In this document: in pieces, positions 14,074 to 15,415 of the stretch | How the letters are laid out: each line of letters begins with the position of its first letter | Position numbering within the stretch: position 1 is the stretch's first letter | Source: Clostridia bacterium | GTDB lineage: Bacteria; Bacillota; Clostridia; Oscillospirales; Acutalibacteraceae | Length of the DNA stretch: 64,000 nucleotides | NCBI GenBank assembly: GCA_017409265.1 | Contig: JAFQSY010000032.1 | Coordinates: 33,593-97,592 of the forward strand | Reading direction: 5' to 3' | Program-made: the position numbers and the translations under genes | The notes under the pieces: model-generated | Database searches by the model: none | What the model saw: only the letters and a program-made list of their open reading frames with translations | What the model was told of the DNA's origin: nothing

Positions 14074-14149
14074 GCTGCTATGGCTCAGGCGGTAGAGCGC
14101 ATCCTTGGTAAGGATGAGGTCGGCGGTTCAAGTCCGCCTAGCAGCTCCA
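14074..14149 (+). tRNA. tRNA-Thr (anticodon GGT)
   Basis: A 76-base cloverleaf: acceptor stem 14074-14080 with 14139-14145, anticodon loop TTGGTAA giving GGT, T-loop GGTTCAAGTCC, and encoded CCA at 14147-14149. Its last 46 bases (14104-14149) are repeated exactly at 15370-15415, which marks it as the likely attachment site of an inserted element. Confidence 0.97.
14104..14149 (+). repeat. Left copy of 46-bp direct repeat (attL-like)
   Basis: This lies inside the functional tRNA-Thr, from the anticodon stem to the CCA end. It is identical over 46 bases to 15370-15415; the flanking bases differ on both sides. Confidence 0.9.
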
Positions 14150-14182
14150 ATCCCTTGAAACTTAAGGTTTCAAGGGATTTTT
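14149..14182 (+). terminator. Terminator directly after tRNA-Thr
   Basis: A 13-bp perfect stem (14149-14161 with 14167-14179), a 5-base loop and a T run end the tRNA transcript. Confidence 0.9.
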
Positions 14183-14204
14183 CTTATGTTTTATGAAATT
14201 CATC

Positions 14205-14252
14205 AAACCGCATCCCTAAATCGCAATTTTTTAGTAAGGGATGCGGTTTTAT
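14205..14252 (+). terminator. Second terminator-like hairpin in the islet
   Basis: A 13-bp perfect stem (14205-14217 with 14237-14249), a 19-base loop and TTTT. It insulates the structured-RNA promoter from the tRNA transcript. Confidence 0.7.
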
Positions 14253-14295
14253 TATGAATAAAAAACAACCCAAAATTTTGAATTCATAAAATCAC

Positions 14296-14324
14296 TTGAA
14301 AAAACAGATTTATGTTGCTATAAT
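14296..14324 (+). promoter_or_regulatory. Strong sigma-A promoter of the structured RNA
   Basis: TTGAAA (14296-14301), a 17-base spacer and a perfect TATAAT (14319-14324). The predicted start near 14331 coincides with the first base of the long stem. Confidence 0.85.
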
Positions 14325-14330
14325 TAAATT

Positions 14331-14505
14331 ACCACACTATAATTTAATATTTTTCCGATATAAGGGGTAAGTGTTTTTGTCTTTGGTAAAAACGCAAACT
14401 TCTATATTTCTATGCCCTTTTATCGGATATGAAATTATAGTGTGGTAGCTAAACGGAGTTTGTGTTTTTCGTGTGTGCATGACTTCGGTTAGCACACACT
14501 TTTTT
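14331..14505 (+). ncRNA. Candidate structured non-coding RNA of unknown class
   Basis: The predicted transcript begins at about 14331 and ends at the terminator near 14505, about 170 bases. Its first 15 bases (14331-14345) pair perfectly with 14432-14446. Inside an internal loop, a second stem (14355-14366 with 14415-14426, one mismatch) closes an apical region holding a further small hairpin (six base pairs, 14373-14393). No RBS or convincing reading frame lies inside. Paired ends, internal loop and inner stem recall the gross shape of regulatory RNAs such as 6S RNA, but I see no match to a known class. It could be a long leader for the downstream membrane-protein gene, although a terminator intervenes. 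Confidence 0.6.
14471..14505 (+). terminator. Terminator of the structured RNA
   Basis: An 8-bp stem (GTGTGTGC with GCACACAC, 14471-14478 and 14492-14499) with a T run. It separates the RNA from the next gene; conditional read-through is possible. Confidence 0.8.
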
Positions 14506-14607
14506 ATTTTATGGAGAATAAAACGGTGTCAGTTTATTTTGAGGAGGCGAAAATACAATTCTCCATAAACAACATTAAAAAGATAAATAAAACAAGAGGT
14601 GTTTATT

Positions 14608-15159
14608 ATGAAGAAAAAAATCGCTAATGCTGTTCAATTGGTTTTATTAATCGCATCATTTATTGTTTTAATTTCAAAAAACATTACAGGACCAAACGGC
14701 ATAGGCAAAATGTCTGCCATTTCATTTTTACATAATTTTTCAGCATGGTTCGTTCCTGTGTATGTTTTATATGTACTCGGCGCAGTTATGTGTATAATTT
14801 CAATCATTTCAAAAAATACATATAAAGACGGAAAAGCTCATGGTGCGGTTGCAATATTGCTGTTTATCTATACATTTTTTATCCTTTGTTTTTGCGAATC
14901 AAGTTATGGTTTCCAAGTTATTGATAGCAATTTCCCCGTCGGACTCTTTGCAGGATTGCTTTTTGCAGTGGTCGTTGTTGCTTTTGCAAAGCGTTCCTCG
15001 TTCATCGCAGAATCAAAAGAATCACAGCGAACCGTTGTTAACAACATTCAGGAAACCACAAATGCCGATGAATTGAAAAAATATAAAGATCTGCTTGACA
15101 GCGGTGCAATAACACAAGAAGAGTTTGAAAACAAGAAAAAAGAATTATTAGGTCTATAA
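14608..15159 (+). CDS. Membrane protein with C-terminal SHOCT-like motif (islet cargo)
   Basis: The 183-residue protein has about four hydrophobic segments (residues about 7-25, 45-65, 75-95, 110-128), then a polar linker. It ends in KYKDLLDSGAITQEEFENKK, which matches the SHOCT domain, a short C-terminal helix pair found on many bacterial membrane and phage-associated proteins. ATG 14608 is preferred over in-frame GTG 14599, which sits inside the AGAGGTG ribosome-binding site. It is the only substantial gene inside the tRNA-Thr islet and is followed at once by a strong terminator. The function is unknown; a role in sensing or in exclusion is guesswork. Confidence 0.78.
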   Translation: MKKKIANAVQLVLLIASFIVLISKNITGPNGIGKMSAISFLHNFSAWFVPVYVLYVLGAVMCIISIISKNTYKDGKAHGAVAILLFIYTFFILCFCESSYGFQVIDSNFPVGLFAGLLFAVVVVAFAKRSSFIAESKESQRTVVNNIQETTNADELKKYKDLLDSGAITQEEFENKKKELLGL

Positions 15160-15163
15160 TATC

Positions 15164-15198
15164 AACAGGGAACGGAATTAATCCGTTCCCTGTTTTTT
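15164..15198 (+). terminator. Terminator after the SHOCT-type gene
   Basis: A 13-bp stem (15164-15176 with 15182-15194) followed by TTTTTT. Confidence 0.9.
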
Positions 15199-15369
15199 AT
15201 CAGTTGATTTTCTTGTTTAATTGATTTATACTATTATTAGTTTAGAGATGAGGTCTGAGTTGATATAAAACAAGACCTCTAAACAAATAAAAATCCTAAA
15301 CGTTATTGCTTTTCAAGGGGTTGTTGGGGGTATCGTCTCCAAAACAAGACCGAGAACCGGTCTTGTGTG
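15199..15369. other. Repeat-rich right end of the islet
   Basis: No gene is visible. An 11-base word AAAACAAGACC occurs at 15267-15277 and 15341-15351. The second copy starts an 8-bp perfect hairpin (15345-15352 with 15358-15365) that ends only four bases before the right 46-bp repeat. Another imperfect stem pairs 15241-15256 with 15274-15284. Such repeats beside an attachment core recall integrase arm or excision-factor sites; this is inference. Confidence 0.45.
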
Positions 15370-15415
15370 CTTGGTAAGGATGAGGTCGGCGGTTCAAGTC
15401 CGCCTAGCAGCTCCA
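15370..15415 (+). repeat. Right copy of 46-bp direct repeat (attR-like tRNA-Thr fragment)
   Basis: An orphan 3' part of tRNA-Thr, identical to 14104-14149. It lacks the acceptor 5' strand and D-arm, so it is not a functional tRNA. Confidence 0.9.

Follow-up and report, generated by a model that had tools for sequence, protein, structure and literature searches.

Cis-mobilizable elements (CIMEs), as defined in PMC5704250, derive from ICEs or IMEs, retain attL and attR and have lost the genes for integration and transfer. The islet described here agrees with that definition, as far as the source sets it out, in keeping both att sites (an exact 46-bp repeat, with ends shared among elements), in having no integration or transfer genes, and in belonging to a family in which tandem insertion occurs; it differs in being only 1.27 kb long and in that a related full element shows no relaxase or conjugation gene among 7 ORFs. 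The ssrA islands of Dehalococcoides are likewise flanked by an RNA gene's 3' end, and some have no integrase; according to the same account, they differ from the islet in their recombinase family (serine), in their target (the T-loop of the tmRNA gene) and in a repeat of 20 bp (PMC3146451). The tyrosine-integrase islands collected by Islander include a class with crossover at the anticodon loop and a displaced 3' fragment, as in the present case, but because the Islander procedure, as described, requires an integrase gene, islets like this one lie beyond its scope (PMC4383910). Among autoregulated tRNA-associated integrases, intS of KplE1 has an attL region that overlaps the integrase promoter, thereby permitting autoregulation (PMC2951348); our family resembles the described arrangement in this overlap and differs in that the hairpin before the integrase gene repeats the anticodon stem of the target, autoregulation being a likely consequence here. 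Simple arm-less integrases of the IntBrujita type consist of a core-binding and a catalytic domain only (PMC8138268). The recombinase of our full element has the same two domains, whereas its family is found in Clostridia and uses many tRNA families, and it is likened to the type described there by its domains.

The window, that is, the whole stretch of 64,000 nucleotides that was analysed, comes from an assembly of 91 contigs that is 80% complete (G000), and the features given below lie on its + strand unless stated otherwise. A tRNA-Asp gene (13988-14064, ARAGORN) is the upstream neighbour of an intact tRNA-Thr(GGT) gene (14074..14149; ARAGORN and Rfam tRNA), which would be the rebuilt left junction of the insertion (attL side). 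As the preliminary description had pointed out, the 3' part of this gene is duplicated exactly: the 46 bp at 14104..14149 recur at 15370..15415 (the orphan copy, attR side) with a spacing of 1266 bp, a match far beyond chance. The repeat starts one base 5' of the anticodon loop and ends with the encoded CCA, and the identical 46 bases are found in the congener G010, which places the insertion in the anticodon class of tRNA integration. Two terminators belong to these junctions. The terminator-like hairpin that had been noticed behind the orphan copy is present as a hairpin and T-run (15416..15450), and since empty sites have a similar hairpin directly 3' of tRNA-Thr, it is the original tRNA-Thr terminator, displaced. 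The terminator now following the intact gene (14149..14186) is near-identical in five occupied sites and unlike the chromosomal terminators; being common to all five, it therefore arrived with the element.

The islet stretch was searched in 60 genomes, its own included, and matching loci were compared; among the 45 genomes of the genus, the tRNA-Thr locus was compared in 33. The orphan copy is present in five of these (G000, G010, G021, G023 and G032), with the two element ends on separate contigs in G021 and G023, and absent from the other 28 within the available stretch, which is short in some genomes. The empty site that the insertion hypothesis called for exists in four congeners (G062, G027, G016 and G007), where tRNA-Thr is followed directly by a similar hairpin. 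In G062 this sequence closely matches the window's post-orphan sequence over about 40 bases, bearing out the proposal that the original tRNA end had been pushed away. Among the occupied sites, the left end is 93-94% identical to those of G010, G021 and G023, with a flanking gene at 82% DNA identity to that of G010, and the right end (15203..15369, 167 nt) is 84-87% identical by blastn to those of the four other sites, the match spanning all 167 nt in three of them and 152 nt in the fourth. The same two ends are found in G032 around a second islet, in which the copies lie 1.7 kb apart and enclose a gene for a 335-aa HTH protein, without an integrase. Comparison of these genomes thus demonstrates, at the level of sequence, the empty site, the full sites, the shared ends and the missing genes.

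The full element is best seen in G010, where the same ends surround 9.1 kb at the same tRNA-Thr. Its genes code for a tyrosine recombinase, a WYL-domain regulator, a 528-aa protein, a serine resolvase and a replication-initiation-like protein (Pfam, PHROGs). The recombinase (310 aa) has its start codon within the shared left end and is of the arm-less kind, with a SAM-like domain (15-103), a catalytic domain (119-282) and no arm-binding domain before the core-binding domain (Pfam). No relaxase, conjugation or capsid gene was found with Pfam and PHROGs among the 7 ORFs of this element tested, and since neither a relaxase nor a conjugation gene is among them, its ancestor may have been an IME, a satellite or a phage-like element. 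G023 carries the same type of element; here the islet's cargo gene follows another small gene in the interval from the WYL gene to the resolvase. As had been stated, no integrase is encoded between the repeat copies of the islet, and the full relative has one. In its own genome, the best integrase match is partial and reaches 32% identity, so that no close integrase was found in this 80% complete assembly.

Genome contigs yielded 11 loci with relatives of the integrase, including those of three congeners described above; an order sample gave matches in 22 of 394 genomes (E <= 1e-40) and a class sample that overlaps it in 8 of 391 (E <= 1e-60). Close relatives (at least 57%) lie behind tRNA-Thr, Val, Ala and Pro, whereas distant ones follow Ser, Gln, Arg, Leu or Phe-like tRNA genes or occupy the 3' terminus of a protein-coding gene. 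The last group includes L100, L102-L112 and L115, where the conserved protein has a EMMGLIGAGNNPMVGMTV-like C-terminus and, judged by eye, a hairpin also precedes the integrase gene. Two family elements stand in tandem at one tRNA-Thr (L087:3882-14965, G442:C60), and integrase, WYL gene and leader RNA (see below) are present in both. One Val-type element (L088) lies on a contig labelled Bacteroidaceae that is possibly mis-binned, with a tRNA-Gln gene between tRNA-Val and the element. A phage or plasmid origin was considered and set aside: the integrase relatives in phage records (13) and plasmid records (4) are distant, all below 60% identity. Viral contigs gave two integrase matches, at 63% and 25% identity.

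A hairpin that echoes the anticodon stem of the tRNA occupies positions 14205..14249 of the islet (arms 14205-14217 and 14237-14249), immediately before the relic of an integrase start. In full elements a hairpin lies in the same interval between tRNA and integrase, and its arms often resemble the anticodon stem of the element's own target tRNA. This was tested in 30 integrase-bearing elements of nine tRNA families, elements at protein-gene sites lying outside the sample, by scoring the best match of the whole tRNA-integrase interval, terminator included, to the anticodon region of the own target. The own-target mean was 9.23 versus 6.53 for swapped targets, and 0 of 10,000 permutations reached the own-target value (P = 1e-4), where the permutation test, like the swap test used for the leader RNA, treats related, non-independent sequences as units. 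The own score exceeded the foreign mean in 28 of the 30 elements and every foreign tRNA family in 17; the remaining 13 do not beat every foreign family, and two exceptions, L093 and L114, are not above the foreign mean, L114 running against the rule with an own score of 5 and a foreign mean of 5.4. Controls with the T-arm and D-arm were null (P 0.46 and 0.57) in the 23 of 30 elements on which they were run; that 23-element run omitted L082, L095, L099, L113, L114, L159 and the second G442 element, the addition of which left the outcome unchanged. Relative to the full elements, the islet hairpin has exchanged a G-C pair for A-T, with both arms altered. In the open-access literature searched, we recognised no published statement of such an anticodon-hairpin rule.

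Since Pfam finds no arm-binding domain in the recombinase, core-like recombinase sites are to be expected, and we regard the hairpin, together with half-sites at the right end, as putative extra core-type sites. Their placement before the integrase start points to likely autoregulation of the integrase, of the sort reported for other tRNA-associated integrases (PMC2951348). The right end of the islet contains a half-site-like GATGAGGTCTG (15247-15257) and a hairpin beside the presumed crossover (15344-15366). Across 14 right ends, a copy of the hairpin arm beats shuffled sequences at P <= 0.05 in 12 (200 shuffles each); in the window's right end (P 0.38) and in that of G393 it is no better than shuffles, and in several of the 14 the half-site score is not above that of the best foreign right end. 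In 10 of the 14, the repeat is no more than 5 nt away from the end of a hairpin with 7 bp or more. The right end also holds a promoter-like TTGATT-17-TATACT (15204-15232) that reads across the orphan copy and in a circle would face the integrase side; Pcirc of ICEclc offers a comparison. On the opposite strand of the orphan copy there is an ORF (15303-15449, - strand) holding LLGGLEPPTSSLP, which we take to be a typical spurious frame opposite tRNA genes.

The sole plausible gene between the repeat copies (14608..15159) codes for a 183-aa membrane protein with a C-terminal SHOCT domain (Pfam SHOCT, E 1.5e-10) and is followed by a terminator-like inverted repeat (15164..15194). It is preceded by a strongly folded leader RNA (from 14330, z -6.3). 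A covariance model of this RNA, run on 38 element loci, matches directly after the WYL gene in 5 of 16 elements that have a close integrase (at least 57% identity) and about 3 kb or more of downstream sequence (G023, L084, L086 and both tandem L087 elements; the other 11 do not have it there), and in a sixth integrase-bearing element, the distant Leu element G393. At one protein-gene site (L137), the RNA lies about 6 kb away on the opposite strand. The genes behind these leader RNAs differ from element to element, that of L084 ending, by eye, in a SHOCT-like segment. From the presence of an RNA-led cargo slot in full elements it follows that the islet looks like a left end, an RNA-led cargo gene and a right end. 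Without a bracketing repeat, the SHOCT unit is also found close to this tRNA in G036, in G021 and partly in G019, and may therefore be an old, partly fixed unit; in G036, 92 nt of the element right end persist beside it and the orphan copy is absent. RNA-led SHOCT units near tRNA-Thr outside an att pair are those at L039:7668-10146 and L035:501-3465.

The leader begins with a sigma70-like promoter, TTGAAA-17-TATAAT with an extended -10 (14296..14324), just behind which the structured RNA (14330..14507) comprises helices P1, P2 and P3, a pseudoknot (14388-14402 with 14455-14469) and a terminator (14471-14505). Relatives were collected by BLAST and the covariance model was built from 7 sequences. 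Within the genus it matches 25 of 45 genomes, within the order 126 of 394 genomes from 69 of 169 genera (E <= 1e-3), and within the class 76 of 391 genomes (E <= 1e-5), with rough E-values, scoring limited to some candidates per genome and overlapping order and class samples. For each of P1, P2, P3, the pseudoknot and the terminator, the mean pairing energy with the own partner strand beats all 2000 swaps among 52 sequences of less than 80% identity (out of 58 aligned), in an alignment (A4) fitted to a model that contained P1 and parts of P2 and P3 and neither the pseudoknot nor the terminator helix. An extended -10 lies just 5' of the RNA in 51 of 53 family loci, and a gene with an RBS starts no more than 45 nt from the model end in 34 of 53, versus 67 of 2120 random control positions. 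A hydrophobic N-terminal segment, by a crude rule applied without a control, is present in 28 of 39 proteins near the RNA. Further matches in the window's own genome are C40:19690-19863, C86:3783-3979 and the weak C84:2-140; at L178, an abiF RNA (Rfam RF03085, 1363-1399) lies just 5' of a leader RNA of the same family.

In its order of promoter, compact fold, terminator, then RBS and gene, the leader resembles the attenuator and riboswitch leaders of Rfam, the intrinsic terminator standing between the RNA and the downstream gene; it differs from them in reaching no family's gathering score. No Rfam family was found over it at gathering score in the window and 26 other loci (6 and 20), and at the E-value threshold the only matches were far below gathering, e.g., to microRNA families; a 28.6-bit match to one of these in L216 (gathering score 100) was taken as chance. 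In the open-access literature searched, we recognised no fitting published name for it. The apical A-rich strand can pair with the strand just 5' of the terminator in 8 of 8 sequences, over 15 bp in the window, so this strand would pair either inside P3 or, through these 15 bp, with the strand just before the terminator, and the RNA may thereby control the cargo gene by attenuation. A triple helix of U-rich strands was set aside because each of the two can form Watson-Crick pairs with this one A-rich strand, which suggests competition between them. We see about an even chance that this is a new, widespread Clostridia class of cis-acting RNA, a two-state attenuator controlling genes for surface or membrane proteins, including the cargo slot of the anticodon-mimicking elements.

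The preliminary description had taken the islet for an integrated or decayed mobile element, and the empty sites together with integrase-bearing elements that have the same ends at the same tRNA (G010, G023 and G021) support this. Our preferred reading, which we hold at a probability of about 0.88 on the strength of the sequence comparison, is that the islet is a non-autonomous, CIME-like integrative element with both ends and an RNA-led cargo gene that has lost its integrase, its ancestor being a full element of about 9 kb. A tyrosine recombinase would have inserted that element by crossover in or beside the anticodon loop of tRNA-Thr(GGT), rebuilding the tRNA at the left end, bringing the element's own terminator, and displacing the old 3' half and its terminator rightward. 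The islet would then have kept both ends and the cargo gene with its RNA leader, and lost the integrase, WYL regulator, resolvase and replication-like genes. For it to move, the integrase of a related element would have to act on its ends, either in trans or, following tandem insertion, jointly; the ends are presumably still functional, with the hairpin and right-end half-site as putative binding sites of the recombinase. We infer such mobility in trans, and likewise the switching of the RNA.

Whether the islet can still move is the main point on which another explanation competes. It may instead be a deletion relic of one old insertion, immobile, with ends that persist by recency or gene conversion, and we would give this somewhat less than an even chance. 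The decayed, unbracketed SHOCT units in G036, G021 and G019 and the own assembly without a close integrase are as expected of such a relic, but a 46-bp repeat that is still exact, the retention of both ends in the G000 and G032 islets, whose cargoes are unrelated, and a hairpin maintained with a two-sided change are harder to reconcile with it. The near-identical ends could also be a product of exchange between elements. We regard it as unlikely that the RNA-led SHOCT gene belongs to the resident chromosome and was caught between att copies through a separate element: G023 has this gene within its element, in the slot between WYL gene and resolvase, five other integrase-bearing elements have the RNA directly after the WYL gene, and a piece of the element right end (the 92 nt in G036) stands beside the unbracketed unit. 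What speaks for a resident gene are RNA-led genes behind the same tRNA with no orphan copy in G036 and G061, although the G061 contig ends about 1.2 kb past the RNA and an orphan copy may lie beyond.

The tRNA-like fold at the right end also admits two readings. It had been stated that no tRNA body exists at the orphan copy, and ARAGORN indeed calls none at 15370, but a tRNA-like 5' body does precede it: the sequence 15312-15416 adopts a cloverleaf (15317..15415, right end plus orphan 3' half) as its minimum-energy fold (z -4.3), and for the homologous sequence of G010 ARAGORN reports a 'tRNA-Lys', with no call at the other occupied sites. We take the fold, with low confidence, to be a relic or by-product. 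That it is instead a functional tRNA or tRNA decoy would agree with the minimum-energy cloverleaf, with the call in G010 and with the at least 10 nt of the own tRNA 5' half kept in 6 of the 14 right ends. We consider this very improbable, in view of a 5-nt loop unlike a standard anticodon arm and of tRNA 5'-half pieces in the window's right end that are all 5 nt or shorter; acceptor-like pairing, moreover, was noticed in this genus only, in sequences too near-identical for covariation to be tested. A tmRNA was also considered and rejected, since the sub-threshold Rfam match over the right end (E 9e-8, 24.8 bits versus a gathering score of 47) was gone in a narrower search.

Our preferred reading of the islet as a non-autonomous integrative element places it in a known kind of element; what is new are the anticodon-echoing ends, the tiny size and the unlisted leader RNA. 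That RNA is unmatched by Rfam and present in roughly one in three of the genomes sampled from the order; it raises a regulatory question for gut Clostridia. The hairpin in front of the integrase gene gives a hint of the recombinase's target tRNA, a rule that is testable at once and could mean that a single sequence underlies both target choice and control of the integrase. Islets as small as this one may move with helper elements and yet escape integrase-based island finders such as Islander.
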